Shown one piece after another: positions 4,264-60,087 of a stretch of 64,000 nucleotides of DNA. Source of the DNA: Zhongshania aquimaris (GTDB taxonomy: Bacteria; Pseudomonadota; Gammaproteobacteria; Pseudomonadales; Spongiibacteraceae); the NCBI RefSeq assembly GCF_019312595.1, contig NZ_JAHWDQ010000005.1, positions 124,001-188,000 on the forward strand, read 5' to 3'. Position 1 is the stretch's first letter. The number at the start of each line of letters is the position of its first letter. The notes below the pieces were generated by a model. That model worked only from the letters and a program-made list of their open reading frames with translations, made no database searches and was not told the DNA's origin. A program made the translations under genes and the position numbers.

Positions 4264-4281
4264 AAACAATGAAGATTGTTT
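4264..4281. promoter_or_regulatory. Shared cluster operator, site 1 (perfect palindrome)
   Basis: AAACAATGAAGATTGTTT has perfect 7-base arms around a 4-base spacer and is the best copy of the repeated cluster motif. It lies upstream of the minus-strand Rieske gene starting at 4180 and downstream of the SnoaL gene ending at 4400, so it should control the Rieske gene. Confidence 0.7.
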
Positions 4282-7706: not shown

Positions 7707-7791
7707 GTAAAGTCTCCAACAATATTCGCATACAGTGTTTTTTGTTCTGATCACTGCGCTCAGTAATAAACTATACACATTATTATAAATA

Positions 7792-7809
7792 AAACAATCG
7801 TGTTTGTAT
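7792..7809. promoter_or_regulatory. Shared cluster operator, site 2
   Basis: AAACAATCGTGTTTGTAT matches the cluster motif fully in the left arm and at five of seven bases on the right. It sits between the divergent pntAA and medium-chain reductase genes and could control both. Confidence 0.6.
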
Positions 7810-7957
7810 TTTTAATGATTTGGATATAGAATAAATAGTTATTTGTAAGGCGACATTTTGTCGATTGCGTTTGCTTGTCGGTAAGCTGCACAATGAATCG
7901 AATCGTAAACGAGCAATCGTCGAAATCAAAAAATACCTAGAATAAGCGGTGATTCTT

Positions 7958-8962
7958 ATGATGTATAAAAATAAGCAGTTCTATTTAAGGGCGCGCCCCG
8001 ACGGAGTGGTTACCGATAAAGCCGTAACTCAACGCGAACAAATTATAGAGAGCCTAGAAGACGGCGAGATGCTTATCGAAAACCAGTTCATCTCAATCGA
8101 TCCCGCCATTCGAGGGTGGATGAGCGATGAGCCGAGTTATATGTCGCCTATCGAAATTGGCAGTGTTATCCGCAGTTCTACGGTCGGTAAGGTGGTAGAG
8201 AGCCGTCACCAAGATTATCAGATCGGAGATATGGTCTACGGGCTAAGCGGCTGGGAAACTTTCAGCGTTTCTAACGGCTTTTTTATGAATAAAATACCTG
8301 AAAATAGTCCTTATCCGGTAAATTACTATTTAAGTGTGATGGGCGCGGTGGGCCTAACGGCCTATTTCGCTATTACAGATCGTTCGGGCTTAAAGCCAGG
8401 TGAAACCTTGCTAATGAGTGCTGCTGCGGGTGCTGTCGGATCAATTGGTGGCCAAATCGCTAAATTGATGGGTTGCCGAGTTGTAGGTTTGGCTGGCAGC
8501 GAAGAAAAATGTAATTGGGTTAAGCATCTCGGCTTTGATGATGTTATCAACTATAAAGAAACCACCGATATGACTGCCGCAATTGAAAAGGCTTGCCCAG
8601 AAGGGGTGGATGTATATTTTGATAATGTGGGTGGTGAGATTTTAGATGCTGCGCTACTTAATCTAAACTCCCATGCGCGCGTCCTGTTCTGTGGTTCTAT
8701 TGCGTCGTATAACGCAACGGAGCCCGTGCCGGGCCCTTATAACTGGTGGCAGATTTTAGCCCGTAGCGCTGAGGTACGAGGCTTTCTTGTCAGTGACTAT
8801 TTAGATAGATTTCCTGAGGCGGCGCTAACGATCGGTGAGTGGGTTGACGCAGGAAAGATTGAATTCAAAGAAGATGTAGTAAAAGGATTTGATAATTGTG
8901 TGACGGCCTTCAATCGTTTATTTGACGGCAGTAATAACGGAAAAATGCTTATCCAGGTGTAG
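7958..8962 (+). CDS. NADP-dependent medium-chain oxidoreductase, CurA/PTGR-like (1 of 4)
   Basis: The protein is about 334 residues from the ATG at 7958; a GTG at 7949 and an ATG at 7961 are alternatives. It lacks zinc ligands and carries the nucleotide-binding run MSAAAGAVGSIGGQIAKLMG and the VDVYFDNVGGEILDAAL motif. These features are typical of leukotriene/prostaglandin reductases and CurA, which use NADPH to reduce activated C=C bonds of enones. It is most like the 42893 paralogue, sharing a PVPGPYNWWQILA-type loop. It is divergent from the pnt operon with a shared operator between, so NADPH supply and use may be coregulated. Confidence 0.9.
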   Translation: MMYKNKQFYLRARPDGVVTDKAVTQREQIIESLEDGEMLIENQFISIDPAIRGWMSDEPSYMSPIEIGSVIRSSTVGKVVESRHQDYQIGDMVYGLSGWETFSVSNGFFMNKIPENSPYPVNYYLSVMGAVGLTAYFAITDRSGLKPGETLLMSAAAGAVGSIGGQIAKLMGCRVVGLAGSEEKCNWVKHLGFDDVINYKETTDMTAAIEKACPEGVDVYFDNVGGEILDAALLNLNSHARVLFCGSIASYNATEPVPGPYNWWQILARSAEVRGFLVSDYLDRFPEAALTIGEWVDAGKIEFKEDVVKGFDNCVTAFNRLFDGSNNGKMLIQV

Positions 8963-9445: not shown

Positions 9446-10831
9446 TCATGCGTTGAGATATTTATCGATCGTTTGATGGAGGTGGCGAATCCGACTTTCT
9501 TGGTAAGACCCTAGGCTTACGGTTCCCTTTTTAGATGCCATCATGCCTTTTTGTACGGCGGGCATATTGCCATCGTCCTGATCAAATACTGGGCCGAGTG
9601 CACCTAGCTCTTCTGCCGCGGTGAACGATTGGTCAGCCGCTAGTTTATGGACAGGAACAGAGTCAGGTTTTTTCGATCCTTTGGGGTGACGAAGAAGAAT
9701 CATGACGTCGAATAGGCAGCTATCGTGATTGTCGCCGTTTGGAATAAAGCGATAAACAATATTGCCATGATAACCAACCCATACTTGGAAGTTGGGGAAG
9801 GCGCTGTACAAAATCGCATCTTCGAGTTCGGCCATGGTAGCGTCAGATAAGTCTTCGCCAGAGGCTTCTTCATATATTTTACGGTTGGTTTCCGCAACAT
9901 ACTTGCGGGCTGTGACACCGGCTGGTAGCAGCTGTCCTTCTGAAGAGCTAAGTGCCATGCGACCGGACAGTTCCAATATATCGCGCATTACATCTTCTTC
10001 AGTTACACCTGAAAGATGTGGGCTCGGTGTCCCCATTGGTGTTACAGATCGGCTGATGTTCTCGCCGAAGGTGTCATACTGGGAGTTTGCATCACCGGTA
10101 AAAGTTAAGATTTCACGGTGGGTTGCTACAGTATGGAATGACTCCATAAATGCTTCGGTGCCTACCTTCCAGTTGCATCGTACTTCGCGTTGAACATGAA
10201 CCGCTTTGTAATATTCTTGCAGAGGAAAGCGGCTAAAGTGGTCCGGCAAAGGTGCTAAATACTCTTCAAGAGAAATAGCATTTTCGTCGAAGTTGATGAA
10301 GACAAATCCGCCCCATGTGTCGACTTTAACCTGGGGAAGGTTCATTTCCTTTTCTTCAAAATGTTTAAAATCCCATTGGCAGGGAATACCTTGGAATTCG
10401 CCGTCTAGACTCCAGGTTGCACCATGGAAGGGGCATTTGAATTCCTTAACGTGACCGTCTTCGTCGCGTAAAATACGGCCGCGATGTAGGCATGAATTGA
10501 TGAAGCCTTTGATCTCGTTCTCACTGGTGCGTGTCACAATGACCGATTCGTTAATCACTTCGTAGACGTGATGGTCACCTACCTCAGGAATATCATCTGC
10601 TCGGCAGGTCATCTGCCAAACCTTAGGCCATAATTTTTTCGCTTCTTTGTCATGAAATTCGCGGGAAATCCAGCGTGACATATCGATGTCGTCATCGCCC
10701 ATATAATCGCAGGTATTTTCCCGTAGGTACGCGGGGACATCAACTTCTTCAAAATCAAGAAGATCTTGGAATGAAGTTCCTTCGCAGCGAACATCGCCGC
10801 CTTGTTGCCGTGGTTTGTTGTTTGTAGTCAT
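9446..10831 (-). CDS. Rieske ring-hydroxylating oxygenase, alpha subunit (2 of 4)
   Basis: This 461-residue protein has a Rieske motif at C114-x-H116 and C133-x2-H136 (SCLHRG and KCPFHGATW). The mononuclear iron site is near E230-x2-H233-x4-H238 (MESFHTVATH). It is closest in layout to the 27300 paralogue: both have a long N-terminal leader, an IPEVGDHHVY/IPEVGDYTVY segment and an IPCQWDF segment. It is the last or near-last gene of a long minus-strand operon that begins with E1 alpha at 17360. Hydroxylation of a bulky substrate is inferred from the family. The oxygenated substrate cannot be named. Confidence 0.92.
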   Translation of the reverse strand: MTTNNKPRQQGGDVRCEGTSFQDLLDFEEVDVPAYLRENTCDYMGDDDIDMSRWISREFHDKEAKKLWPKVWQMTCRADDIPEVGDHHVYEVINESVIVTRTSENEIKGFINSCLHRGRILRDEDGHVKEFKCPFHGATWSLDGEFQGIPCQWDFKHFEEKEMNLPQVKVDTWGGFVFINFDENAISLEEYLAPLPDHFSRFPLQEYYKAVHVQREVRCNWKVGTEAFMESFHTVATHREILTFTGDANSQYDTFGENISRSVTPMGTPSPHLSGVTEEDVMRDILELSGRMALSSSEGQLLPAGVTARKYVAETNRKIYEEASGEDLSDATMAELEDAILYSAFPNFQVWVGYHGNIVYRFIPNGDNHDSCLFDVMILLRHPKGSKKPDSVPVHKLAADQSFTAAEELGALGPVFDQDDGNMPAVQKGMMASKKGTVSLGSYQESRIRHLHQTIDKYLNA

Positions 10832-10865
10832 AGAGTGTGACTCCCAGTTTTTATATTATTTGCTG

Positions 10866-12008
10866 TTATCGTGTAAGAATATTTACGCCACTGAGGCCGG
10901 GTGCACCATAAACGTGGGTGTAACCTACCTTCGGTGATCCTGAGACTTGTCGAGCTCCGCCTTCGCCGCGCAGCTGGACACAAATTTCATGTACTTGCCG
11001 TAAACCTGATGCGCCTACAGGCTCGCCGTTGGCTAGGCAGCCACCGTCAGTGTTGACCGGCATTGAGCCATTAATTTTGGTTGCGCCTTCACGCAATAGC
11101 TTTTCCTGTTCGCCGTGTTCGCAAAATCCATTCTCTGCCATGTGAATGATTTCGGTGCCGCTGTCTGTATCTTGCAACTGCATTACATCGACATCTTTCG
11201 GTCCTAATCCGGCGAGTTCGAATGCGGCATTAGACGCGGTGACAGTCGGTGCGTCGGCAACATTCATTGCCTGTGACGGGCTGAATACTTCGAAACTGCC
11301 ATAGTGGCGTGTGCGCACTGCAGCAGCTTTCAAATAAATAGGTTTCTTTGTATAGCGCTCGGCGATATTGGCATTACACAAAATCAATGCCGCGCCACCT
11401 TCTGCTGGGCTACAAAACATATATTTGCGCAGCGGGTTGCTCACCATCATCGAGTTGGCAATTTGCTCATAGGACAAGGCTTCTCTGCGCCATGCTGTTG
11501 GCGTTAGCGCACCGTTCTGAAACGCTTTTTCCGATACGCGAATTAGCGAGTCGTTCGATATGCCGTGATCGTGCATATAGCGCTGGAACTTCATGGCAAA
11601 AAATTGAGTAGTTAACATCATGCCGCTTTCGCCATACCAATCGTCCAGACCCCAGTCGCTGGGCGTGGGATTGAAGGCGCCACGGGCGTGTTTATCGAAG
11701 CCGACAACAACGCCAATATCGTATTCACCCGATTTAATCGCTGTATATGCTGCATGTAATGAGCTGCCGCCGGTGGCGCAACCATTCCATATATTGGTGA
11801 ATTGCAGCCCGGTTAGACCGAGTTCATTTACTAGCGCGTCGGCGTTGCCGCCGTCTTGACTGCCGCCGTAAGCAAACTGCATGTCTTTCCACGTTAGTCC
11901 TGCGTCTGCCAGTGCGGTGCGAATAGCGCTGGCGCCTTGTTGTTGCCCCGTGAGTGTTGGTGAGCGACCAAAGGGGTGTAGACCAATTCCAATAATGGCG
12001 ACGTCCAT
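10866..12008 (-). CDS. Thiolase-like lipid-transfer protein, probable CoA-linked aldolase (Ltp2-like)
   Basis: This 380-residue thiolase-fold protein keeps the nucleophile-type Cys77 (NGCATGG). The usual GHP motif is replaced by GEP (E329 in LANGEPVGASG), and the second catalytic Cys is absent, with GYTHVYGAPG in its place (Y363, H365, Y367). Those changes are expected in non-thiolytic relatives such as Ltp2, a retro-aldolase of steroid side-chain breakdown that works with a DUF35 partner. Here a DUF35 gene ends four bases upstream, which supports that reading. A simple beta-ketothiolase is less likely. The pair lies in one operon with E3, E2, E1 beta and E1 alpha genes. Confidence 0.85.
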   Translation of the reverse strand: MDVAIIGIGLHPFGRSPTLTGQQQGASAIRTALADAGLTWKDMQFAYGGSQDGGNADALVNELGLTGLQFTNIWNGCATGGSSLHAAYTAIKSGEYDIGVVVGFDKHARGAFNPTPSDWGLDDWYGESGMMLTTQFFAMKFQRYMHDHGISNDSLIRVSEKAFQNGALTPTAWRREALSYEQIANSMMVSNPLRKYMFCSPAEGGAALILCNANIAERYTKKPIYLKAAAVRTRHYGSFEVFSPSQAMNVADAPTVTASNAAFELAGLGPKDVDVMQLQDTDSGTEIIHMAENGFCEHGEQEKLLREGATKINGSMPVNTDGGCLANGEPVGASGLRQVHEICVQLRGEGGARQVSGSPKVGYTHVYGAPGLSGVNILTR

Positions 12009-12012
12009 TGTT

Positions 12013-12441
12013 TTACTCCTCGGCGGGCTTAAAGCTGAACATCATAATTTCTTGTCCGCTTTCATCAGTTCGGAAGGGCAGGATCACTAGATCCAATGAC
12101 ATACCAATATGGGGTACTTGGCCTTCAATTAATTCAAACCTGCTTTCAACACGCACGCCGCCAGGCATCTCTACATAACCTACGCCGTAGGGTTTAAACG
12201 TTTCGGGTGTCTCGTCACTAAGATAGGGTGACTTGGGCATAAAGCTTTGAATAGTCCATGTCCAGAGCGTACCGCGGTTGCCCAGTGCTGTTATCTCGGT
12301 TTCTCTTGAGCCGCAAGCGCGGCAATCATTTTGTGCAGGAAAAGCGGCTTCTCCACAGTGTATGCAGCGGCTGCCTAATAACTCAGGCTTTTCTGCGGGC
12401 CATGTAAACAGGCCTTCTTTAATCGCGATCTGTTGTGTCAT
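12013..12441 (-). CDS. DUF35 OB-fold/zinc-ribbon partner of the thiolase-like protein
   Basis: The protein is 142 residues from the ATG at 12441 (MTQQIAIKEGLF); a GTG at 12453 that overlaps lpdA is an alternative. It has an N-terminal rubredoxin-like zinc ribbon with CIHCG and CRACG, then an OB-fold with GTLWTWTIQSF and PYGVGYVEMPGGVRVESRF. DUF35 proteins form complexes with thiolase-fold enzymes and supply an acyl-CoA binding surface. In Ltp2-type aldolases the DUF35 subunit is required for activity. The four-base spacing to the thiolase-like gene fits a stoichiometric complex. Confidence 0.88.
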   Translation of the reverse strand: MTQQIAIKEGLFTWPAEKPELLGSRCIHCGEAAFPAQNDCRACGSRETEITALGNRGTLWTWTIQSFMPKSPYLSDETPETFKPYGVGYVEMPGGVRVESRFELIEGQVPHIGMSLDLVILPFRTDESGQEIMMFSFKPAEE

Positions 12442-12449
12442 ATCTACTC

Positions 12450-13841
12450 TCACTGATGAATAGCAATGCCCAAGGAATCGAGCACGGATTCATGCATAGA
12501 CTCGGACAGAGTAGGGTGGGCGAAGATGGCGTTTGCTAGTTCGTGCTCAGTGGCTTCGAGCTGCTGTGCAATACAGAAGCCTTGAATTTGCTCGGTGACT
12601 TCCGCGCCAATCATATGCGCGCCCAGCAATTCACCACTTTCGGCATCAAAGATGGTTTTAACAAAGCCGACGCTCTCGTCGATGGCGAGCGCTTTGCCGT
12701 TGGCGTTTAAATTAAACCGACCAACGCGAATATTTCGTCCGGCGGCTTTTGCCTTTGCTTCAGTCATTCCGACACTAGCAATTTGCGGGCGGCAATAGGT
12801 GCAGCCGGGCACGCGATCTTTGCGAAGTGGTTTGGTATTGGCCATACCGGCAATACGTTCGACACAGATGACGGCTTCATGGCTGGCTTTGTGCGCTAGC
12901 CATGGAGGACCGGCAACATCGCCGATGGCATATAGGCCAACGATATTCGTTTTGCTAAAAGGATCGGTTTTTATAAAGCCGCGATCGATATCAGCGTGAA
13001 GTTCTTCCAAGCCAAGGTCTTGAATATTACCGCTTATGCCCACGGCTAAAATGACGCGGTCTACGGTGATTTTTTCATTGCCATTGGCGGTTTTTAGTTC
13101 AGCGGTAACACTGTTTGCGTGATGCTCAACAGTATTGACGGTGGTGTCGGTATGAATACGAATGCCGCGTTCGCGGAAGCCTTTTGCTAGCTGGGCGGAG
13201 ACATCGCTATCTTCTACTGGAACGATTTGATTCGCGGCTTCTACTAATGTCACTTCGCTACCAAGATCATTGTAGAGACTGGCAAATTCTACGCCGATGG
13301 CGCCAGCACCAATAACCAGTAAACGTTCTGGTAGCGCTGTGGGTGTCATCGCTTCGCGGGCGCCCCAAATCAGTTTGCCGTCAACTTTAATATTGGGGAG
13401 ATCCCGAGCGTGTGCACCGGTCGCTAAAATAATATGATCTGCCCGATAGGATTGCTCCCCCTTGTCAGTGCTCACACACAGGGTGAAGGGAGCGGTAACT
13501 TTCGCTTTGCCGCGAATGACGGTTACCGCATTTTTACTCATTAAATAGTCAATGCCCTGGCTTAAACGCTTAGCTGTGCTGCGGCTGTGGCCAACCAATT
13601 TGGCGAGGTCTAATTTGGGTGTATCGATTTCAAAACCGAAGTGCGCCGCGTGTTTTAGTGTGTTGGCAATGTCAGCGCCGCGAAGCAGCGCTTTGGTTGG
13701 GATGCACCCCCAGTTTAGGCACACGCCGCCAAGCTCGGCTTTTTCAACTAAAGCTGTTTTGAAGCCGAGTTGTGCAGCACGTATTGCTGCTACATATCCA
13801 CCTGGGCCGCCGCCAATTACGATAAGATCGAAATCGTTCAT
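12450..13841 (-). CDS. lpdA: Dihydrolipoyl dehydrogenase (E3)
   Basis: This 463-residue flavoprotein has the FAD site GGGPGGYVAAIRAAQLG, the redox disulfide GGVCLNWGCIPTK, the NAD site VIGAGAIGVEFASLYNDLG, a YAIGDVAG FAD motif and the C-terminal HPTLSESMHE base. It reoxidises lipoyl groups and reduces NAD+. It is the E3 of the complex encoded by the next three genes upstream in transcription. Its presence inside the operon indicates a dedicated E3, as in acetoin dehydrogenase clusters. Confidence 0.95.
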   Translation of the reverse strand: MNDFDLIVIGGGPGGYVAAIRAAQLGFKTALVEKAELGGVCLNWGCIPTKALLRGADIANTLKHAAHFGFEIDTPKLDLAKLVGHSRSTAKRLSQGIDYLMSKNAVTVIRGKAKVTAPFTLCVSTDKGEQSYRADHIILATGAHARDLPNIKVDGKLIWGAREAMTPTALPERLLVIGAGAIGVEFASLYNDLGSEVTLVEAANQIVPVEDSDVSAQLAKGFRERGIRIHTDTTVNTVEHHANSVTAELKTANGNEKITVDRVILAVGISGNIQDLGLEELHADIDRGFIKTDPFSKTNIVGLYAIGDVAGPPWLAHKASHEAVICVERIAGMANTKPLRKDRVPGCTYCRPQIASVGMTEAKAKAAGRNIRVGRFNLNANGKALAIDESVGFVKTIFDAESGELLGAHMIGAEVTEQIQGFCIAQQLEATEHELANAIFAHPTLSESMHESVLDSLGIAIHQ

Positions 13842-13850
13842 TGTGCCCCC

Positions 13851-15332
13851 TTATCCCAGCATCGTTGCTGGTTGTTCAAGGAAGCCTTTCAGGCAATGCA
13901 TAAACTCGGCTGCTAGGGCACCATCGATCACGCGATGATCACTCGCTAATGAGAGCGACATCATGGTTGCAACGGCGAGTTCACCATTGCGCACAACCGG
14001 GCGTTGTTCGCCTGCACCAACCGCGAGTATTGCCGCTTGCGGTGGGTTGATAATGGCATCGAAACTTTTAATACCATACATGCCCAAATTGGAAACACAG
14101 AAGGTGCCACCTTGGAACTCGTTCGGTGTTAAACGACCAATTTTGGCACGGGTGGCTAGATCGCGTACTTCACTCGATATCGATAGCAGACCCTTTGTTT
14201 CTGCGGCTCTAACAATAGGCGTTATCAGGCCATCATCAATCGCAACGGCAACTGAAATGTCGGCATGAGAAAACTGATGAATGGTATCGCCAGTAAACTG
14301 AATATTCATCGCCGGTATTTTTTGCAAGGCGCAGGCACAAGCCTTGACGATAAAGTCGTTAACAGAGACCTTGGCGTGTTTATTGGCCGCATTAATTTGA
14401 GCGCGGGTTGCCAGTAGCTCATCAATACAAGCGTCAATGTTTACTCGGAAGTGGGGCGCTGTTTGTTTTGATTCCTGAAGGCGCTTGGCAATGACTTTGC
14501 GCATACCAGACATTGCTACTTCGCTAAACTCAGGGGTGTCGTCAATAACCTGAGTGGCGGCCGCAGGCGCGGGCGCATTACGACGGGCTGCGACAGCCTC
14601 AACATCTGCCTTACATACGCGGCCTCGGTCACCGCTAGCGCGACAGTCAAGCAAATTTACTTTCAGGGTGGTAGCAAGGCGGCGGGCGACTGATGTCGCT
14701 TTTACAGCGCCGTCATCGCGGGTGATATTGGCGCTGTCGACACGCGTTGCGGGGTGTTCTACTTGGCCGCCGGCCGCACGTATTGCGGCTTCAATATCCT
14801 CCTTGTTTACCCTGTCGTGACTACCGCTAGGGGAGATATTATTCAGGTTTATCTGATACTGTTTGGCTAGCCGTCGCGCGATTACCGTTGCTGCGACTTC
14901 GCTATCGTCGCCACCCTCTGAAAGGGCACCCAATGATGAGGCTGGTGTGGGTGCGGCTTGTACTGAAGTGGTTTCAGCTGGGCTTTTGCCCGCGGTGACT
15001 GGCGTACTTGCCGGGGCGGCCTCGGGTTCTGGCGCCACATGTCCTGACAAAGTTTGGATAAACGCATTAACGTCTTCATCGCTAACATCGGCGGGTGCAA
15101 TCACCCCCAGCAATTGTCCAACGTTAAACGTATCACCGGTATTAGCAATAATAGCGCGCAACACACCACTGCTGGCAGCGGTGATTGTGTTGATGATTTT
15201 GCTGGTTTCAATATCAACTAAATCGGCTTCTTCGGTGACCTGGTCGCCCACGGCGAAATACCAATTACCGATGACACCCTCTGACATTTCCATACCCCAT
15301 TTGGGCATGGTAACGGCTGTAATTACTGACAT
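13851..15332 (-). CDS. Dihydrolipoamide acyltransferase (E2) with two E3-binding domains
   Basis: This 493-residue E2 has an N-terminal lipoyl domain (lipoyl Lys45 in IETSKI) and a Pro/Ala linker. Two peripheral subunit-binding domains follow at about 146-184 (ATVIARRLAKQY...RVNKEDIEAAI) and 212-250 (ATSVARRLATTL...RVCKADVEAVA). The catalytic domain carries the active-site His in SDHRVIDG. One binding domain is usual, so two is odd. The second has two Cys (C230 and C240). The protein transfers an acyl group from E1 to CoA. Substrate could be acetoin, pyruvate or a pathway-specific 2-oxoacid or acyloin; sequence alone does not decide. Confidence 0.92.
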   Translation of the reverse strand: MSVITAVTMPKWGMEMSEGVIGNWYFAVGDQVTEEADLVDIETSKIINTITAASSGVLRAIIANTGDTFNVGQLLGVIAPADVSDEDVNAFIQTLSGHVAPEPEAAPASTPVTAGKSPAETTSVQAAPTPASSLGALSEGGDDSEVAATVIARRLAKQYQINLNNISPSGSHDRVNKEDIEAAIRAAGGQVEHPATRVDSANITRDDGAVKATSVARRLATTLKVNLLDCRASGDRGRVCKADVEAVAARRNAPAPAAATQVIDDTPEFSEVAMSGMRKVIAKRLQESKQTAPHFRVNIDACIDELLATRAQINAANKHAKVSVNDFIVKACACALQKIPAMNIQFTGDTIHQFSHADISVAVAIDDGLITPIVRAAETKGLLSISSEVRDLATRAKIGRLTPNEFQGGTFCVSNLGMYGIKSFDAIINPPQAAILAVGAGEQRPVVRNGELAVATMMSLSLASDHRVIDGALAAEFMHCLKGFLEQPATMLG

Positions 15333-15334
15333 GA

Positions 15335-16366
15335 TCAGGCTCCCAAGACGTCTTTAACGGCACGGATGATGCGCTCAACACTCGGTACATAGGCGTCTTC
15401 CAATACCGGAGAAAATGGCACGGGTGCATGGGGGGCGGTCACTTTACGAATCGGGGCACGCAGGCTCGAAAAGCCTTTCTCAGCCACAATACTGGAAATA
15501 TCAGCAGCAAGACTGCAGCGCTCATGGGCTTCGTCAACGATCACTAAGCGGCCGGTTATTTCTACGCTCTCTAAAATAGATTCTTCGTCGAGAGGGGAGA
15601 CGGTGCGTGGGTCAATAACATCGCAGCTAATACCTTCTTTGGCGAGTTCGTCAGCGGCTTGAATCGCGCGGTGTACCATATTAGAAATCGCGACGATGGT
15701 GACGTCGGTGCCTTCCCGTGGGAATGCCGCTTCGCCGAAGGGAATGGCATAGGCCTCGTCGGGTACTTCGCACTTTAGGTCATACATGATCTTGTGTTCT
15801 AGGAATAGAACCGGATCGTCATCCCTAATGGCTTGAATTAACAGGCCTTTAGCGTCGTAAGCATTACTCGGCATAACTACCTTTAAGCCGGGAATATGGG
15901 TCACTACGGGGTGCAGCATGCTGGAGTGCTGTGCACCAGCGCGCCAGCCAGCACCGACAGTGCCGCGAATAACCATTGGCGTGCGCGACTTTCCACCAAA
16001 CATATAGCGAAACTTTGCAGCTTGGTTAAAAATTTGGTCGAAACAAACGCCGATGAAATCAAAAAACATCAGCTCTGCTACGGGGCGCAAACCGTTGTTT
16101 GCCGCGCCTGCAGCGGCGCCAATAATGGCCGATTCGCTGATAGGGGTATCGATTACTCGCTCGCGGCCAAATTCGGGCATTAGGCCTTTTGTTACGCCAA
16201 AAACGCCGCCGTAGGCGTCGTCTTGTCCCTCGCAGCCCGCGCCACCGGAGACTTCTTCGCCAAGAATAATAACCCGTGGGTCGCGGCGCATTTCTTGCCG
16301 AAGTGCATCGTTAATGGCTTCGCGATAGGTCTTAATTGAGCTTGGGCCTTTTATCTTATTAGTCAT
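15335..16366 (-). CDS. 2-oxoacid/acetoin dehydrogenase E1 component, beta subunit
   Basis: This 343-residue transketolase-like protein has the features of E1 beta. These include VIILGEEVSGG, a TPISESAIIGAAAGAA segment, an RAGAQHSSML stretch as in AcoB-type subunits and a C-terminal transketolase domain with VIDPRTVSPLDEESI. It pairs with the E1 alpha encoded 22 bases upstream to form the thiamine diphosphate-dependent decarboxylase or acyloin-cleaving unit. Length fits acetoin dehydrogenase AcoB and pyruvate dehydrogenase beta subunits equally well. The E2 start follows two bases after its stop. Confidence 0.92.
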   Translation of the reverse strand: MTNKIKGPSSIKTYREAINDALRQEMRRDPRVIILGEEVSGGAGCEGQDDAYGGVFGVTKGLMPEFGRERVIDTPISESAIIGAAAGAANNGLRPVAELMFFDFIGVCFDQIFNQAAKFRYMFGGKSRTPMVIRGTVGAGWRAGAQHSSMLHPVVTHIPGLKVVMPSNAYDAKGLLIQAIRDDDPVLFLEHKIMYDLKCEVPDEAYAIPFGEAAFPREGTDVTIVAISNMVHRAIQAADELAKEGISCDVIDPRTVSPLDEESILESVEITGRLVIVDEAHERCSLAADISSIVAEKGFSSLRAPIRKVTAPHAPVPFSPVLEDAYVPSVERIIRAVKDVLGA

Positions 16367-16388
16367 GCTTAGTTCCTAATTGAAATTC

Positions 16389-17360
16389 TTAGTAAGAGCA
16401 GTAAACGTCAGCCATGAGATCAGTCTCAGGGTCAGGGTTGGGTGCCGCGAGGCCCTCTTTCACTGCGGTTTCAATCAGCGCAATCACTTCGGTATCGATT
16501 GCGTCCATTTCTTCAGCCTTTAACCAGCCTTCCTTGATCACGCGATCTCGGAATATCTTTATGCAGTCGCGGTTTTTCTTGGCGAGTTTGATTTCGTCTT
16601 TGCCACGATATAGTTGTGGATCGCCGATAAAGTGACCGTCAAATCGAACGGTTTCCGCTTCGATAGCAAACGGGCCTTTGCCATCGCGGGCGTGGGCTAT
16701 TGCACGCTTACAGACTTCATAGGTTGCAAAGAAATCGGTGCCATCGACATATTCTGATGGCATACCGAAGGCGCGGTTTCGGTCGGCTAAACTATCGCAG
16801 CCAAGTGCATAGTTCGCGCCGGTGCCTTCGCCGTAGCCGTTATTTTCAAACATAAATACATGGGGAAGTTTTAGGACAACCGCGAAGTTTAAAGACTCTA
16901 AAACAGTACCCTGGTTGGCGCTGCCGTCGCCGCCAAATGACATGGCGATATCTTTAGTGCCCAAGGTCTTGGAAGCTAATGCCGCGCCATTACACAGCGG
17001 CTGGCCACCGCCAACAATAGCGTTGGCGCCGATCATACCTTTGTCAAAGTCGGCTATGTGCATGGAGCCGCCTTTGCCTTTGCAGAGGCCTGTAGCTTTG
17101 CCCATGATTTCTTTCATCATACCGATGACGTCACAACCCTTGGCTATGGAGTGCCCGTGGCCGCGGTGGGTACTGCCGATAATGTCGGTATCGCTGAGAT
17201 CTATGCATGATGCGACTGCGATTGATTCTTGGCCGTTTGATGCGTGAACAAAGCCGGGAACATTTCCGGCTTCGAACTCTTTAATGCAGCGTTCTTCAAA
17301 AATTCTAATGGTTTTCATCGTGCGGTAGGCACGCAGTAAAAATGCGGAATCATATGGCAT
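16389..17360 (-). CDS. 2-oxoacid/acetoin dehydrogenase E1 component, alpha subunit
   Basis: This 323-residue protein has the thiamine diphosphate motif GDGSANQG followed by ENNGYGEGT, plus STHRGHGHSIAKG and a KGKGGSMHI loop typical of AcoA/PdhA. It heads the operon E1 alpha, E1 beta, E2, E3, DUF35, thiolase-like, Rieske alpha. A good SD (AAGGGGC) lies ten bases before the start and the shared operator site 3 lies 63 bases further up. The size matches AcoA. Linkage to an aldolase-like pair suggests that a short acyl fragment or acyloin from the pathway is its substrate, which is an inference. Confidence 0.92.
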   Translation of the reverse strand: MPYDSAFLLRAYRTMKTIRIFEERCIKEFEAGNVPGFVHASNGQESIAVASCIDLSDTDIIGSTHRGHGHSIAKGCDVIGMMKEIMGKATGLCKGKGGSMHIADFDKGMIGANAIVGGGQPLCNGAALASKTLGTKDIAMSFGGDGSANQGTVLESLNFAVVLKLPHVFMFENNGYGEGTGANYALGCDSLADRNRAFGMPSEYVDGTDFFATYEVCKRAIAHARDGKGPFAIEAETVRFDGHFIGDPQLYRGKDEIKLAKKNRDCIKIFRDRVIKEGWLKAEEMDAIDTEVIALIETAVKEGLAAPNPDPETDLMADVYCSY

Positions 17361-17422
17361 AAAACTGCCCCTTATTACTGGTTATTTATAGGCTGATTCA
17401 AGCTTACACCAAATAATTTAAA

Positions 17423-17440
17423 AAACAAGCAAGTTTGTTT
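17423..17440. promoter_or_regulatory. Shared cluster operator, site 3
   Basis: AAACAAGCAAGTTTGTTT is a copy of the cluster palindrome in the gap between divergent E1 alpha and the TetR gene at 17551. An extra half-site (GATTGTTT) follows at once at 17441-17448. Its position fits autoregulation of the TetR gene together with control of the seven-gene operon. Confidence 0.68.
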
Positions 17441-17550
17441 GATTGTTTAATATGTCGTAATATCTATACAAGCGCGTGTCTGTTATTGTAAATTGTCGAA
17501 GTAATTTATTGGCTCGCATGACTTTGTGTAAGCGGTGAAAGGAATAGATA

Positions 17551-18240
17551 ATGGCAAGAACATCATCCAAGGAGGTCGCTGCTAAAGCGCCTAAGAGAGA
17601 GGCGGGTTGGCAGGCAGAAAAAAGTGCCATGACGCGGACGGCAATTTTGGACGCGGCGATGACATGTTTTATAGAAATTGGATATGCGAATACAACGACA
17701 GCCCTTATTGCTAACCATGCAGGGGTGTCGAGGGGGGCGATGATGCATCATTTCCCCTCCAGAATGTCGGTAATGAAGGCGGTTATAGCCTACCTTCATG
17801 AATTGCGTTTGAAAGAGTATTTGGAGTTGATGGCAGATATAGATATGCCGGACGCTCAGTTAACCAATAAGGATATTCGCAATTCGGTAGAGATGGCGTG
17901 GAACTACGTCAATATGCCATCCTTTATCGCTTATCAAGAGCTGTTAGGGGCGTCGCGCACCGACCCTGAGTTAAAGGCTGTGATGGAGCCGGTCGAAAAG
18001 GATTTTGAGAAGCAGTTCTTACAAATGGCTAAGTCAGTATTTCCGCACTGGCAAAAATTGCCTGCCTTAGAGCCTGCGCATGATTTGGTGCAGTTTCTTA
18101 TGAAAGGGATGGCATTGAGTCAGATGTCTACACGTCGTAATGCCCGAGTCAAAAAAGTTATCGATTATCTGGCTCTAATTCTGATGGAAATTTATGACGA
18201 ATCAATAGAGTCTCGATTGGGTGACGAATCTGCCAAGTAG
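17551..18240 (+). CDS. TetR-family regulator, candidate master repressor of the cluster
   Basis: This 229-residue protein has a basic N-terminal tail (SKEVAAKAPKREAGWQAEKS), then a TetR HTH at about 28-75 (TTTALIANHAGVSRGAMMHHF). A C-terminal ligand domain of TetR_C type carries PSFIAYQELLGASRTDPELK. The start has GAAAGGA upstream. It is the only regulator gene that lies inside the operator-marked region, and its own promoter carries the shared 18-bp palindrome. It is therefore the best candidate to bind all nine sites, probably released by a CoA ester or pathway intermediate. The assignment rests on location and is not proven. Confidence 0.88.
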   Translation: MARTSSKEVAAKAPKREAGWQAEKSAMTRTAILDAAMTCFIEIGYANTTTALIANHAGVSRGAMMHHFPSRMSVMKAVIAYLHELRLKEYLELMADIDMPDAQLTNKDIRNSVEMAWNYVNMPSFIAYQELLGASRTDPELKAVMEPVEKDFEKQFLQMAKSVFPHWQKLPALEPAHDLVQFLMKGMALSQMSTRRNARVKKVIDYLALILMEIYDESIESRLGDESAK

Positions 18241-18246
18241 AGCTAA

Positions 18247-18296
18247 ACAGCAAGCATAAAAAAGGCCGCATTTGCGGCCTTTTTTATGCTTGCTGT
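18247..18296. terminator. Bidirectional terminator with 23-bp perfect stem
   Basis: The arms 18247-18269 and 18274-18296 are perfectly complementary around an ATTT loop. The GC core GGCCGC/GCGGCC is flanked by A6 and T6, so it works as a rho-independent terminator on both strands. It lies between the convergent TetR and SnoaL genes. Confidence 0.9.
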
Positions 18297-18302
18297 ATTT
18301 CT

Positions 18303-18734
18303 TTAACCCAGGCCAATATCGCCCTGGCTAAAAATGGTACGTAGTGTACGTTTGGTAATACGCCAGCCGGAATCCAACAAGGCGAGTTCGTCAGTATACT
18401 CACCCCAAATGGTCAAAAGCTGTCCTTCATAGTCGCCTTTTCCTAGATGAATAGCTTGTAGGTAGCAGGTCGCAGCCGCGGTCGAGCCATTTAACTTTAC
18501 GCGGATATTGCTAAGCATGTGCTGGGTCTCAATGCACTGCTCCAATACGCCGCAGACCAACTCCTTTACTTCCTTCGGCCCCTTGCATTCACCGATACCA
18601 ACATACTCGACCTTTGCTTCGGCTGAGAATATGTTGTCTAACAAATCATATTCCTTTGTATCTAATGCGGTGGCATATTCTAATATTATATTTTCGATTT
18701 CACGTATTTGTATCTGTTGATTTGTATCGATCAT
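18303..18734 (-). CDS. SnoaL/NTF2-like small protein (2 of 3)
   Basis: The 143-residue protein has a helical N-terminus (IREIENIILEYATALDTKEY), then DNIFSAEAKVEYVG and a C-terminal strand pair ending SGWRITKRTLRTIFS, the SnoaL-like pattern. An AGGT precedes the start by about eight bases. It is the second gene after the SDR at 18819-19580 on the same strand and shares its operator. As with the other SnoaL proteins here, a cyclase, isomerase, dehydratase or oxygenase-partner role is possible. No catalytic residues can be assigned with confidence. Confidence 0.8.
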   Translation of the reverse strand: MIDTNQQIQIREIENIILEYATALDTKEYDLLDNIFSAEAKVEYVGIGECKGPKEVKELVCGVLEQCIETQHMLSNIRVKLNGSTAAATCYLQAIHLGKGDYEGQLLTIWGEYTDELALLDSGWRITKRTLRTIFSQGDIGLG

Positions 18735-18818: not shown

Positions 18819-19580
18819 TCACTGTGCGACTAGGCAGCCATCTACCACCAATTCTGAGCCGGAAACGTAGCTAGATTCATCTGAGGCGAGGAAAAGTACG
18901 CAGTTCGCAACCTCTTCCGGTGTGCCCATTCTGCCCATTGGAATAGTGTCTACCAAAATATCGAAATGCGCCGGATTGTCGCGTTTGGCATCTTCCTGAA
19001 TGTTTGTCAGTATCATGCCGGGGTGCACAGAGTTGCAGCGAATATTGTGGCGAGCATTTTCGAGTGCAACAGTTTTAGTAAGAAGACGCACGCCACCTTT
19101 ACTTACGCCATAAGCACCAGTGCCAGGCATACCGACTAAGCCTGCTATCGAGGACATATTGACGATAGAGCCGCCGCCAGTCTTGCGCATTGCTTTAATT
19201 GCTTCTCGGCAGCCAATAAACACGCTGGTCATATTGATGTCCATTTGAAGCTTGTATTCATCTAAGGTCATTACATCAACATTTCTCAATACCGCGATGC
19301 CGGCATTGTTGACGAGAATATCTATTTTTCCGAACCTGTTCTCAACAGCTGTAATCGTGTCGATCCAACCTTGCTCAGATGTCACGTTTTGAGTTAGGCA
19401 TATCGCCTCAGCGCCGAGCTCTTTGACTTCCGCTAACGTTGACTCTAAGCCTTCGGCATTGATATCGGTAAGTACTAGTTTGGCGCCTTCTTTAGCAAAG
19501 GCGAGGGCTATAGAGCGGCCCAGTCCGGGTTTTGATGCGGCGCCGGTGATTAGTGCAACTTTGTTATGTAAGCGAGTCAT
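18819..19580 (-). CDS. Short-chain dehydrogenase/reductase (SDR 1 of 8)
   Basis: This 253-residue classical SDR has a cofactor motif TGAASKPGLGRSIA with a one-residue longer glycine loop than usual. NNAG (LVNNAGIAVL), catalytic Ser in NMSSIAGLVG and YGVSK follow, and the C-terminus SYVSGSELVVDG is normal. It oxidises or reduces a hydroxyl/keto group with NAD(P). The aspartate in LVLTDINAEG favours NAD(H). It is divergent from the reductase at 19799 with operator site 4 between. A SnoaL gene follows it. Confidence 0.9.
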   Translation of the reverse strand: MTRLHNKVALITGAASKPGLGRSIALAFAKEGAKLVLTDINAEGLESTLAEVKELGAEAICLTQNVTSEQGWIDTITAVENRFGKIDILVNNAGIAVLRNVDVMTLDEYKLQMDINMTSVFIGCREAIKAMRKTGGGSIVNMSSIAGLVGMPGTGAYGVSKGGVRLLTKTVALENARHNIRCNSVHPGMILTNIQEDAKRDNPAHFDILVDTIPMGRMGTPEEVANCVLFLASDESSYVSGSELVVDGCLVAQ

Positions 19581-19691: not shown

Positions 19692-19709
19692 AAACAATGC
19701 TGACTGTTT
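19692..19709. promoter_or_regulatory. Shared cluster operator, site 4
   Basis: AAACAATGCTGACTGTTT matches the motif fully on the left and at six of seven bases on the right. It lies between the divergent SDR (19580) and medium-chain reductase (19799) genes. Confidence 0.65.
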
Positions 19710-19798: not shown

Positions 19799-20824
19799 AT
19801 GAGTCGCTTTATGAAAAAAATTCAAAAAGTTGTTTTATCTAGTCGTCCAGACGGTGTTTTAAATCCCAATAATTTTCAATTAGTTGAGTCTGACTTTCCC
19901 TCGGTAGGTGAGGGGGAATTCCTGATCAAAAACAGATACTTATCATTGGATGCGGGGTTTCGCCAATGGATGAACGAAGGCGCGTCAGATAACTATTTGT
20001 CTGCAATGCCACTCGGTGAAGCGGTACAAAGTATTGTGTTAGGGGAGGTTGTGGAGTCACGACATTCTGACTATCCAGTAGGTGCCCATGTAGTAGGTAG
20101 GACTGCTTGGGAAACCTATAGCATCGCTGACGGTAGCGACCTAATGACTATTATCGACGTGGAAAACGGGGTTTCCGCTGAGCATCATTTAAGTGTATTG
20201 GGCCCTTCGGGAATGACCGCCTATTTTGGCTTAACAGATATCGGCGCAGCAAAAGCAGGAGATACGGTTGTTGTTAGCGCTGCCGCGGGTGGTGTTGGTA
20301 GCTTAGTTGGGCAAATGGCAAAGATCTTAGGGTGCCGAACAATTGGTATTAGTAGTTCTGACAAAAAGTGTCAGTGGTTGAGCGAAGAATTACAGTACGA
20401 CCAAGTTATTAACTATAAATCCGCTCCCGGCTTAGGTCAAAGTCTCAAGGTGCTTGCTCCGGATGGGGTCGATGTTTACTTCGATAATGTAGGCGGTGAG
20501 ATGCTAGATACGGTACTTCAAAATCTGGCATTGAAAGCACGGATAGTCTTGTGTGGTGCTATATCCCAATACGACGTTGACAGTCACTCTGGAGTGCGAA
20601 ATATGTGGGAGCTTATTACTAAGCGTGCTCGGGCTGAGGGCTTTATGTTCTCTGACTATGTGGATGACTATGAGGAGGCGGCTAAAGTGATTAGTCAGTG
20701 GGTGGCTGATGGTAAATTAAATGCCCCGGTTAGTGTTACTGATGGTATATCGACCACTGCTGCGGCCTTCTGCGATATGTTGACCGGTAAAAATCTAGGA
20801 AAGAGCTTGGTTAAGCTTTGCTAA
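19799..20824 (+). CDS. NADP-dependent medium-chain oxidoreductase, CurA/PTGR-like (2 of 4)
   Basis: The protein is 341 residues; an ATG at 19811 is an alternative start. It has a zinc-free MDR core with VSAAAGGVGSLVGQMAKILG and VDVYFDNVGGEMLDTVLQNL. This copy is more diverged from the 7958 and 42893 paralogues: the PVPGPYN loop is replaced by SHSGVRNMWELI, which suggests a different substrate. The likely reaction is NADPH-dependent reduction of an enone double bond. It is controlled from the divergent promoter region that holds operator site 4. Confidence 0.88.
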   Translation: MSRFMKKIQKVVLSSRPDGVLNPNNFQLVESDFPSVGEGEFLIKNRYLSLDAGFRQWMNEGASDNYLSAMPLGEAVQSIVLGEVVESRHSDYPVGAHVVGRTAWETYSIADGSDLMTIIDVENGVSAEHHLSVLGPSGMTAYFGLTDIGAAKAGDTVVVSAAAGGVGSLVGQMAKILGCRTIGISSSDKKCQWLSEELQYDQVINYKSAPGLGQSLKVLAPDGVDVYFDNVGGEMLDTVLQNLALKARIVLCGAISQYDVDSHSGVRNMWELITKRARAEGFMFSDYVDDYEEAAKVISQWVADGKLNAPVSVTDGISTTAAAFCDMLTGKNLGKSLVKLC

Positions 20825-20860: not shown

Positions 20861-20878
20861 AAACAATTAAGTTGGTTT
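20861..20878. promoter_or_regulatory. Shared cluster operator, site 5
   Basis: AAACAATTAAGTTGGTTT has a perfect left arm and five of seven bases in the right arm. It lies 121 bases before the TonB receptor start at 20999. Confidence 0.55.
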
Positions 20879-20998
20879 TTTTGTTGTTCGGTGGTATTTT
20901 ATGAATTATCACGTTTTGCTTATGCTAACTCCTAGCTAAAAACGGGTCAGCGCGAATAACTAATATTAATAAAGAAGTATGCCATTAGAGGATTGACT

Positions 20999-23419
20999 AT
21001 GAATAACAACTTCCTAATTACGCCACTTGCCTTCGCAATTGGGACTACACTTCTTCTCCCTGGGTTTACACATGCTCAGGAAAATGCCGCTCGTGGTGGC
21101 TTAGAGGAAGTGCTGGTTACTGCCCGTAAACGAGAGGAGACTTTACAAGACGCTCCTGTTGCGGTTAGTGCGATTTCCCAAGAGAGAATTGAGAAGTTCG
21201 ATGTCACTAGCTTAGAGCGAATCGCGGCGCTATCTCCCCAGTTCTTTGTGGGGCGCTCATCTAATGGTTCGGGTGCCCAAATGACGCTGCGTGGTATTGG
21301 CTCAAGTTCAACGAGTATCGGCATTGAGCAATCCGTTGCAGTTGTCCTAGACGGTGTTTATTACGGCCAAGGTCGTGTCCTTAACGAAGGTATGTTTGAC
21401 CTTGCACAAATTGAGTTACTGAAAGGCCCACAAGCGCTATTCTTTGGTAAGAACGCAACAGCGGGTGTGGTGTCGATTACCTCTGCTAAGCCAACAGATG
21501 AATTTGAGGCGATTGTTCGCGCGGGCTACGAGTTTGAAGCTGAACAATATCGCTTAGAAGGTATTGTATCCGGTCCCATTAGCGATACCGTAAAAGCGCG
21601 CTTCTCTATTCGGCACAGTGAAATGGACGGTGGCTACTTTAGCAACCAGTCTAAAGAGCAGCCATATACGACGTTTGATGTTGCTGACGGAAGTTCAACT
21701 ACTTACACCTCACCTGCAGATAATCGCGACGCGCCGGGCGAAGAAGAAACCTTGGCGAGGTTGACTGTTGCTGTAGATCCCAATGATCAGTTGGCAATGA
21801 TGTTTACTGCGTCGACAACTAAATCTGAGGTTGATAATTCATCATGGAATTACACCGCCTTTAACTGCCCTGGTGGTGTTGGTGGAATTAACCCTGATTT
21901 GAAGTGTGGTGATAATTTTGTTATTACTCAGAATCGTATGCCATCTGTGTTGGCTAATAGCTTACCCTACGCGCGTAGCAATGGTGACCTGTTTAATGAA
22001 TATGAATCATATTCATTAACAGCGAATGTTGAGTATAGCTTTGACCGATTTACTCTTACGTCACTAACAAATTTTCAAGATAATCAAAATACCTTTGGCT
22101 TATCAGGCGATTTCCAGTCAATTCCAACAGCAACTTTTGCTACCGAGAAAAATACTTGGGAAGCATTCTCCGAAGAGCTTCGTCTATCATCTGAATTCGA
22201 TGGCGCGCTTAATTTCATGCTGGGTATTTTATATCAAAAAACCGAGCGCAAATTTGATCAGTACGTTTCATTGAGCGGATTGATGGATAGTAGCGTTTCG
22301 GACCCATCTCTTGTTTATGTTGGTAGTCAGAAGAAAAGCTTCACCGATGGGGAAACTATTTCACCGTTCTTTCAAGTTAACTATGAATTTACCGATCGCG
22401 TTGAGTTGAGTGTAGGCGCACGTTATACCGAAGAGACCAAAGACTCTGAGTTTGTTCACCCCTACAACAACGCAGGCTTGGGCGGAATCTGGCGTACAAA
22501 CGAAATTGCACGTGGCGATCAGAGTTTCGAGGAATTGTCTCCAGAAGCGACGCTTAGCTGGCAGGTTCTTGATGATGCCCTAGCATATATTTCGTATAAA
22601 ACAGCCTATAAGTCTGGTGGTTTCTCTAATAGTGGCATTTACTCCGCCGACTTTATGGGTGGTTCGGAATCTGACTTCCTTTTTGAACCCGAAACCGCGG
22701 CCGGCTTTGAGGCGGGTTTGAAATCAACATTGCTTGATAACCAATTGCGCTTGAATTTGGCGGTGTACAATTTCGAATACGATGATCTGCAGGTTGACTT
22801 CTTTAACTCGCCAACCTTCGCATTTATTACGCTGAATGCGGGTACCGCGAAAACCAGAGGTATTGAAGTAGACGCGGAGTTTGCGCCAATGTCTGTTCCG
22901 GGCTTGTCGGTGCGCGGCTCCTTGGCGTACAACAATGCCGAGTACGCTAATTTTATTGCACCCTGCTGGGCTGGCCAAACTGCAGCGCAAGGATGTACCA
23001 GTACGGTTCCAGGCACTAACGGAACACCTGGTCAGGATATTAGCGGTGAATCAACAGCGATGGCGCCAGAGTTATCCGCGTCCTTCGGCGTAAGCTATAG
23101 TAACTATCTGCAAAACGGATGGGAGTATGGCATAGCGGTAGATGGCATTTACTCTGATGATTACAACGCGTCAGGATTTGCTAACCCACATGCAATGAGA
23201 GATAGCTATACCACCTTGAACACGAGTATTTCCCTCGCCGGTGAAGGTCGTAAGTGGGAGGTTCAGCTGTTGGGTAAGAACTTGACTGACGAACATATTG
23301 TCTCTGGTGTTGTAGACGGCCCAAGTACTCCCGCAGCAGGTGGTGAATATGCAGATCAAATGGGTTTCACATCTTTGCCTAGAACCATAGCGCTTCAATT
23401 GACCTACCGGTTTGATTGA
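20999..23419 (+). CDS. TonB-dependent outer-membrane receptor (1 of 4)
   Basis: The protein is 806 residues from the ATG at 20999, which has AGAGGA upstream; a TTG at 20993 is less likely. A signal peptide (FAIGTTLLLPGFTHAQ) is followed by a TonB-box-like GGLEEVLVTARKREE and a plug domain with LRGIGSSSTSIGIEQSVAVVLDG and IELLKGPQALFFGKN. A beta-barrel fills the remainder. The chain ends YRFD rather than in a terminal Phe. It would import a scarce or bulky ligand using the proton motive force. The Iron-siderophore class is not indicated, and cluster context suggests the catabolic substrate. Confidence 0.93.
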   Translation: MNNNFLITPLAFAIGTTLLLPGFTHAQENAARGGLEEVLVTARKREETLQDAPVAVSAISQERIEKFDVTSLERIAALSPQFFVGRSSNGSGAQMTLRGIGSSSTSIGIEQSVAVVLDGVYYGQGRVLNEGMFDLAQIELLKGPQALFFGKNATAGVVSITSAKPTDEFEAIVRAGYEFEAEQYRLEGIVSGPISDTVKARFSIRHSEMDGGYFSNQSKEQPYTTFDVADGSSTTYTSPADNRDAPGEEETLARLTVAVDPNDQLAMMFTASTTKSEVDNSSWNYTAFNCPGGVGGINPDLKCGDNFVITQNRMPSVLANSLPYARSNGDLFNEYESYSLTANVEYSFDRFTLTSLTNFQDNQNTFGLSGDFQSIPTATFATEKNTWEAFSEELRLSSEFDGALNFMLGILYQKTERKFDQYVSLSGLMDSSVSDPSLVYVGSQKKSFTDGETISPFFQVNYEFTDRVELSVGARYTEETKDSEFVHPYNNAGLGGIWRTNEIARGDQSFEELSPEATLSWQVLDDALAYISYKTAYKSGGFSNSGIYSADFMGGSESDFLFEPETAAGFEAGLKSTLLDNQLRLNLAVYNFEYDDLQVDFFNSPTFAFITLNAGTAKTRGIEVDAEFAPMSVPGLSVRGSLAYNNAEYANFIAPCWAGQTAAQGCTSTVPGTNGTPGQDISGESTAMAPELSASFGVSYSNYLQNGWEYGIAVDGIYSDDYNASGFANPHAMRDSYTTLNTSISLAGEGRKWEVQLLGKNLTDEHIVSGVVDGPSTPAAGGEYADQMGFTSLPRTIALQLTYRFD

Positions 23420-28718: not shown

Positions 28719-28824
28719 AAGGGAAACTCCGCTAAAGCGCATTAATTTTTCTTATTGAGATAAATTTGTAAAAGTCTGTTTATTTTTGGCCTTTGTTGGG
28801 TATACTTACTCACTCTAAAATAAA

Positions 28825-28842
28825 AAACAAGTATGTTCGTTT
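28825..28842. promoter_or_regulatory. Shared cluster operator, site 6
   Basis: AAACAAGTATGTTCGTTT has six of seven motif bases on the left and five of seven on the right. It lies between the Rieske gene (start 28718, minus) and the TonB receptor (start 28892, plus). Confidence 0.55.
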
Positions 28843-28891
28843 TTTATTTGGGGTTATAAATCTAATAATATTTATGTGGTTTGGAGTGGAA

Positions 28892-34796: not shown

Positions 34797-34814
34797 AAAC
34801 AACACAGATTGTTT
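34797..34814. promoter_or_regulatory. Shared cluster operator, site 7
   Basis: AAACAACACAGATTGTTT has a perfect right arm and one mismatch on the left. It precedes the ACAD-ACAD-SDR-SDR operon. A separate hairpin (GCATTAC/GTAATGC, 34767-34786) lies just upstream and may end the ThuA transcript. Confidence 0.65.
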
Positions 34815-34870
34815 TATTAGGTCTTGATTGGTTTTAATGTAAATTCATGTTCGAACGTCGAGCAAAATAT

Positions 34871-36058: not shown

Positions 36059-36070
36059 GGAATTTATTGA

Positions 36071-37207: not shown

Positions 37208-37226
37208 GTATCAGAAGGAGTACGTC

Positions 37227-37988: not shown

Positions 37989-38010
37989 TGTGCCGGTTTA
38001 AGGCGTTATT

Positions 38011-39882: not shown

Positions 39883-39894
39883 TAATCAATTCCT

Positions 39895-40704: not shown

Positions 40705-40720
40705 CTCTGGCTCCGATATT

Positions 40721-42805: not shown

Positions 42806-42823
42806 AGTCAAACATGATTGATT
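42806..42823. promoter_or_regulatory. Shared cluster operator, site 8 (weakest copy)
   Basis: AGTCAAACATGATTGATT keeps the core CAA-nnnnG-ATTG, matching four of seven left-arm and six of seven right-arm bases. It lies in the divergent gap between the SRPBCC operon and the reductase at 42893, exactly where the pattern predicts a site. Confidence 0.45.
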
Positions 42824-44088: not shown

Positions 44089-44106
44089 AAACAATCATAC
44101 TTGTTT
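44089..44106. promoter_or_regulatory. Shared cluster operator, site 9, overlapping a candidate -35
   Basis: AAACAATCATACTTGTTT has a perfect left arm and six of seven bases on the right. TTGTTT (44101-44106) is followed after 17 bases by TAGGAT (44124-44129), a plausible sigma-70 pair for the TonB receptor at 44190. A protein bound to the palindrome would block that -35. Confidence 0.65.
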
Positions 44107-60064: not shown

Positions 60065-60087
60065 ACTGTACAAGGCTTGCCTATTGA

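Follow-up and report, generated by a model that had tools for sequence, protein, structure and literature searches.

The TetR-family protein encoded at 17551 of the window, the 64,000-nt stretch of Zhongshania aquimaris DNA analysed here, is very probably a dimeric, autoregulated repressor that is dedicated to a catabolic island, binds an 18-bp dyad at eight promoters and is released by an inducer. In the mechanism that we propose, the inducer-free protein would bind the dyad AARCAA-N6-TTGYTT (local consensus AAACAATNNNNATTGTTT) at the eight island promoters, where the promoter-proximal arm TTGYTT would double as a −35 box, so that the bound repressor would shut out RNA polymerase. A pathway substrate or intermediate would bind the C-terminal domain and cause the protein to leave the DNA, and this release would jointly induce the uptake receptors, the Rieske oxygenases, the reductases, the dehydrogenases, the E1-E2-E3/thiolase operon and the repressor itself. 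The link between protein and motif, the conservation of the regulon and the overlap with the −35 box in the divergent promoter of relatives were supported computationally. The mechanism would be an ordinary one, and what appears to be new is a TetR subfamily whose predicted regulon is well defined. No paper on the regulator or its cluster was found in the CC-licensed PubMed Central literature.

The TetR protein and the operators of the window

The regulator gene is followed by a hairpin and faces a long divergent operon:

17551..18240, forward strand: TetR-family regulator of 229 aa with an ATG start (open reading frame and Pfam); recognition helix region VSRGAMMHHF
18248..18295, forward strand: strong terminator-like hairpin, which would end the TetR transcript
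9446..17360, reverse strand: divergent operon of E1-alpha, E1-beta, E2, E3, OB-fold (ChsH2-like) protein, thiolase and Rieske oxygenase (Pfam)

By its domain and its predicted fold, the protein is a TetR-family member. Pfam TetR_N (PF00440) matched the N-terminal helix-turn-helix (HTH) region with an E-value of 2.4e-14 and 53.3 bits against a cut-off of 24. The AlphaFold2 monomer model (pLDDT 91.6) had nine helices in the all-alpha TetR fold, and the VIA fold comparison gave Z up to 15.7 across 192 residues against TetR-family chains. The protein resembles TetR/AcrR repressors in TetR_N, in the all-helical two-domain fold, in a gene that is divergent from the target operon and in a palindromic operator in its own promoter. 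It differs from them in that, at E ≤ 0.001, none of the Pfam ligand-domain families matched its C-terminal domain and no NCBIfam equivalog reached its own cut-off. FasR (29.8 against 330), PsrA (30.4 against 300) and Bacillus FadR (21.9 against 200) were far under their NCBIfam cut-offs, which places the protein outside these equivalogs, and KstR was absent from the NCBIfam matches at E ≤ 0.001. A ScbR-like gamma-butyrolactone receptor was considered and rejected, with NF041196 giving 49.6 bits against a cut-off of 150 and matching the HTH stretch only. The closest other matches in the same genome had 24–40% identity, mostly in the HTH region only, so the protein has no close paralogue.

A matrix was compiled from 21 distinct sites in promoters of relatives outside Zhongshania. 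Its eight best sites in the window were, in order, 17423, 44089, 4264, 7792, 19692, 20861, 34797 and 28825, and all eight lay immediately 5′ of a gene. The top scores of a column-swapped control matrix were 17.4, 14.9 and 13.7. The sites found with this matrix, to which no strand is assigned, were as follows:

4264..4281: operator 5′ of the Rieske oxygenase 2831–4180, exact consensus
7792..7809: operator between transhydrogenase PntA (6564–7778) and a CurA-like reductase (7949–8962)
17423..17440: operator of the divergent TetR / E1-alpha promoter, AAACAAGCAAGTTTGTTT, score 24.7, the top site of the window
19692..19709: operator between an SDR (18819–19580) and a CurA-like reductase (19799–20824)
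20861..20878: operator 5′ of a TonB-dependent receptor (20993–23419), perhaps also serving the four SDRs behind it
28825..28842: operator between a Rieske oxygenase (27300–28742) and a TonB-dependent receptor (28793–31108), score 16.2
34797..34814: operator 5′ of an acyl-CoA dehydrogenase pair and two SDRs (34847–38781)
42806..42823: weak candidate site between an SRPBCC protein and a CurA-like reductase (42893–43930), score 11.1, near background
44089..44106: operator 5′ of a TonB-dependent receptor (44190–46457)

The eight sites mark promoters from 4.3 to 44.1 kb of the window. The sequence-only reading had named the TetR protein as the master repressor of the cluster, and this stood for the eight marked promoters. 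It did not extend to the operon 39112–41896 (Rieske4-ThuA2-SDR8) or to the genes past 46.5 kb, where no site above the background of the homologue matrix was found, and for the gene pair at 42.3–43.9 kb the weak 42806 site was the best that was found. The 28825 match sits within the receptor reading frame as it was called mechanically (28793), and the likelier start, ATG 28893, would make the site intergenic. Similarly, the mechanical start of the SRPBCC gene (minus strand) at 42811 was too far upstream, 42701 being likelier, and Luminiphilus syltensis had a site scoring 15.3 at the position equivalent to 42806. Outside the window, the same genome had a strong operator-like site (score 20.0) at C10:44326–44343 (L050 9997–10014). 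This site closely follows genes for a Rieske oxygenase and a TonB receptor, precedes a TauD-family dioxygenase gene by 12 bp and may belong to the regulon as a distant member. Another site, at C10:15310–15327 (L049 10001–10018), scored 17.2 and matches the consensus dyad exactly; it lies about 150 bp 5′ of a PepSY_TM protein gene and may be a chance occurrence.

The pattern AAACAATN4ATTGTTT, from which AAACAAGCAAGTTTGTTT differs at 2 positions, occurred 13 times in the window when up to 3 mismatches were allowed; 5.24 occurrences were expected, and the maximum in 100 shuffles was 10. The bare half-site AAACAAT was not enriched in the window (21 against 15.1 expected), and it was therefore rejected as evidence on its own. 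The whole genome (4.25 Mb) had 24 sites at up to 2 mismatches, 7 of them inside the window, which is 1.5% of the genome, against 19 for the reversed pattern, a count with some circularity, since the window itself supplied the motif, whereas the homologue-only matrix is an independent test. These counts leave room for a general regulator elsewhere in the genome that binds an AT-rich dyad, in which case the clustering would reflect the AT-richness of a transferred island. The dyad is indeed rich in A and T, and 17 of the 24 near-consensus sites lie outside the window. However, shuffled controls of the same composition and column-swapped controls gave fewer or lower-scoring matches, seven other TetR-family loci of the genome (from eleven further matches) had no site, with a best score of 8.2, and the pairing of site and TetR gene extends to other families within the order. 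We regard the general regulator as exceedingly improbable and retain the dedicated TetR repressor.

The link between the protein and the dyad

For the link in the opposite direction, a matrix made from six window operators, with the TetR promoter excluded, was used to score the 350 nt upstream of 79 of the 80 named relatives. Scores exceeded the 99th percentile of shuffles in 26 of 28 relatives with at least 60% identity, in 24 of 25 with 54–59% and in just 6 of 26 with 40–53%. At 54% identity and above, a site was thus found upstream in 50 of 53 relatives, which share ancestry and do not amount to 53 independent events, compared to 56 of 1733 random 350-nt stretches (3.2%) from the same loci, a background that includes other regulon operators in those flanks. 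Among the three misses, the upstream sequence of L121 reads N, and in L082 and L088 the site was either degenerate or absent. Downstream of the TetR stop, the next 350 nt passed in 15 of 52 loci because an SDR operon with its own site comes next in several of them. Among the 24 loci of an overlapping earlier set, which included that of the window, 16 had an exact AAAC-N10-GTTT upstream, against 0.28 expected. Co-occurrence of homologues and motif, which had been proposed as a check together with the sequence-only reading, was thus borne out, and the palindromic operator in its own promoter that is typical of the TetR family was found by computation both as the 17423 dyad and in the 50 close relatives.

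In the 64 open reading frames of at least 120 aa in the window, Pfam found four regulators only, namely the TetR protein at 17551, a second TetR protein at 114, a MarR protein at 51608 and a FabR-like TetR protein at 59276. The last three are all outside 4264–44106, in agreement with the earlier claim that the 17551 protein is the only regulator inside the operator-marked region. The different palindromes that had been reported beside them were also recovered as candidate dyads: GAACTAGAC/GTCAAGTTC at 780 beside the TetR gene at 114, TCGTTATTCTT..AACAATAACGA at 52247 beside the MarR gene and a weak one at 60041 beside the FabR-like gene. If one of these three regulators bound the motif, the 17551 gene would be merely a target. 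All three are within 60 kb, and the MarR dyad holds one AAACAAT half, but each has another dyad beside it, and no gene for any of them was found in the flanks (up to 10 kb; E ≤ 1e-15, half length) of the 80 TetR relatives, most of which have the motif. Their occurrence in the 18 genomes of the genus points the same way. The TetR protein at 114 was found in 7 (two at 50% identity) and is missing from G295, where the operator-marked island is kept; the FabR-like and MarR proteins were found in 10 and 14, all but two of which are without the 17551 protein. Binding of the motif by one of the three is highly improbable, and the 17551 protein remains our assignment. The FabR-like gene adjoins genes for a fatty acid desaturase and a ferredoxin-reductase-like protein (window 59276–62433), and, because of its presence in 10 of the 18 genomes, it is probably part of the backbone rather than of the island.

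The recognition-helix stretch SRGAMMHHF was shared by the aligned close relatives. Together with a WQAEKSA-TR arm it appears to mark a TetR subfamily for which no description was found. The relatives with 40–47% identity (L123–L149) have SRGAMLHHF instead, and the sites drift in this group, often to AATCAGTC-type sites or AATCACCTTTGACTTTTT, which suggests from the alignments that operator specificity has shifted within the subfamily. The TetR promoter of Seongchinamella unica (L016/L138) has a perfect dyad AAACCGG-N4-CCGGTTT, in which the outer ends are unchanged and both inner arms are altered symmetrically.

Promoter architecture and mode of action

On the side of the divergent operon, and read towards it, the operator arm is TTGTTT or TTGCTT, with TTGATT in two cases. 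The textbook distance between −35 and −10 boxes is 16–18 bp. In a test run after the alignment had been inspected, a −10-like hexamer (at least 4/6 of TATAAT) was present 16–18 bp on in 22 of 24 non-redundant relatives' promoters, drawn from 37 hand-picked loci with E1-alpha or OB-fold beside the TetR gene (L121 omitted). Shuffles gave a hexamer at this distance in 21.8%, and 0 of 1000 reached the observed 22 of 24. Two relatives' promoters had a perfect TATAAT at 16 bp. The corresponding elements in the window were:

17401..17406, reverse strand: proposed −10 box TAAGCT (3/6) for the E1-alpha operon; the arm TTGTTT of the operator, as the proposed −35 box, is 16 bp away; weak here and better in most relatives
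17458..17463, forward strand: proposed −10 box TAATAT (4/6) for the TetR gene, with the other arm of the operator (TTGTTT) at a distance of 17 bp
17442..17448, reverse strand: extra half-site ATTGTTT, located between the proposed −35 and −10 boxes of the TetR gene

Among the window promoters, 8 of 12 directions had a −10-like hexamer, and distances of 0–7 and 20–23 were equally high in this AT-rich DNA; because the −10 signal in the window is not distinctive, the −35 overlap for this genome rests on the relatives. A generic sigma-70 scan of 17361–18320 gave 0 promoters, and for this reason, too, the promoter argument rests on the relatives' alignment. Most simply, the operator arm TTGYTT would be the −35 box of the divergent promoter, and a bound repressor would therefore exclude RNA polymerase, resulting in repression by occlusion. 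The TetR promoter would use the other arm (TTGTTT-17-TAATAT), and autoregulation would follow. The dimer, the sign of control and the ligand-triggered release we infer by analogy with the TetR family.

Some TetR-family proteins, such as LuxR/SmcR and FasR, activate transcription. These activating members were among the VIA fold matches, and the sign of control is not given by the motif alone, so the protein might bind the motif as an activator, or as an activator at some promoters and a repressor at others. An activator would be expected to bind further upstream than the −35 box, whereas the operator arm coincides with it in 22 of the 24 relatives' divergent promoters. Activation is in our judgement unlikely, and repression by occlusion is the preferred mode of action.

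The sequence-only reading had also placed a copy of the site, with an extra half-site beside it, in the promoter of the TetR gene itself. The copy is at 17423–17440, 2 mismatches from the consensus, and the half-site is present at 17442–17448, but it is not conserved in relatives and cannot be used as evidence. As a functional element the half-site was rejected, since the 96%-identical Zhongshania orthologue (BJYM1) has an identical operator without it. It was also absent from Aestuariicella promoters. Across 54 relatives' loci, an exact half-site downstream of the recognised site occurred in L085 only, 25 bp on, and 6-of-7 half-sites in opposite orientation at an equal distance (+19) occurred in L091 and L092.

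Conservation, known systems and significance of the regulon

In 15 contig sets of relatives, the relatives' matrix gave 61 sites scoring at least 14, of which 56 had a window-gene homologue no more than 600 bp downstream. When 14 TetR-promoter sites, part of the source of the matrix, were removed, the figure was 42 of 47. The operons that recur with an operator were Rieske1 (4180), Rieske3 (28742), CurA1, the SDR2 operon, the acyl-CoA dehydrogenase pair, the CoA ligase and the TonB receptors. Among the five remaining sites, one was near a contig end behind CurA2, matching the position of window 20861, and two were on contigs C15 and C17 of G295, without a window-gene homologue within 600 bp. 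The operon at 9446–17360 was a recurrent neighbour of the TetR gene. Across the 80 loci, the TetR gene adjoined E1-alpha...Rieske2, in Luminiphilus OB-fold-thiolase-Rieske2, and in SAR92-type genomes it was upstream of the SDR2-SDR3-SDR4 operon. A DUF3604 protein gene (48837–50747) is beyond the operator-marked stretch here, and its homologues are near the TetR gene in SAR92 and Luminiphilus clusters.

The TetR protein was found in 2 of the 18 genomes of the genus (G000 and G295, the latter with a 96% identical protein), with only a 33% match across the HTH part in G297, and order-wide in 21 of 293 genomes at E ≤ 1e-20, its own included. A plasmid search gave 207 records, all below 60% identity. 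The patchy distribution, with carriers in Zhongshania, Aestuariicella, Pseudomaricurvus, SAR92/HTCC2207 and Luminiphilus/HTCC2080, suggested horizontal transfer of the island. At up to 1 mismatch, the motif occurred 5 and 6 times in the two carriers of the genus and 0–3 times (sum 15) across the other sixteen genomes. At least one such match was present in 15 of 19 TetR-bearing genomes of the order, yet also in 13 of 18 of the genus. In G295, 2 of 6 matches were on island contigs, where the matrix finds seven sites. A looser pattern gave 15 (G000) and 10 (G295) matches compared to 8 each for the reversed control. Whole-genome motif counts thus discriminate poorly and are mildly informative; the position of the sites, not their number, carries the argument.

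The profile search, Foldseek and VIA gave generic TetR matches in which no ligand class stood out, ligand families absent from these lists being possible as well. An acyl-CoA ligand is a guess, supported only by the fact that the island encodes CoA enzymes. Of the four Rieske proteins, the two that were compared with solved structures matched them distantly (best 1.4e-28 and 1.6e-29), and the thiolase was nearest to benzoylsuccinyl-CoA thiolase (5.6e-43), similarities that are too little to name a substrate. By sequence profile and by Foldseek, the closest solved chains included EthR2 / Rv0078 of Mycobacterium tuberculosis, at 19–22% identity and a TM-score (query) of 0.51–0.56, which is a resemblance in fold only; PhlH, at about 20% identity, was also among them. 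KstR2 and FasR chains appeared among many generic fold matches. KstR2 regulates cholesterol ring catabolism as a local TetR-type repressor with a CoA-thioester ligand and a 14-bp operator. The 17551 protein would be like it in being a local TetR-type repressor of a ring-degradation regulon, with a CAAG-like operator half in the Luminiphilus relatives, and differs in sequence and structure (4w1u; 14% identity, TM 0.49/0.56) and in its operator, which spans 18 bp and has its CAA and TTG cores 6 bp apart. PheR of Sphingobium sp. SHPJ-2 is reported to be a local repressor of a ring-cleaving catabolic operon that is released by the substrate, and its deletion also alters TonB-linked functions (PMC13273656). 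The 17551 protein would resemble PheR as a local catabolic repressor and differs from it in family and operator, PheR being an IclR protein with a GCAACG core (PMC13273656).

In a broader reading, whose chances we judge to be about even, the subfamily would be the dedicated switch of a patchy catabolic island passed among marine gammaproteobacterial families and would rewire each acquired operon through an operator embedded in the −35 box, with the regulon defining the full gene set of a widespread marine substrate pathway. The operator offers a cheap handle on a large pathway in coastal marine bacteria of the SAR92 and Luminiphilus lineages, a pathway on which no paper was found. Genes that follow the site, some of which are not part of the island, may belong to this pathway, and a biosensor with which to find the substrate could naturally start from the promoter and its repressor. 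The arrangement suggests how a patchily distributed gene set may keep its coordinated control.
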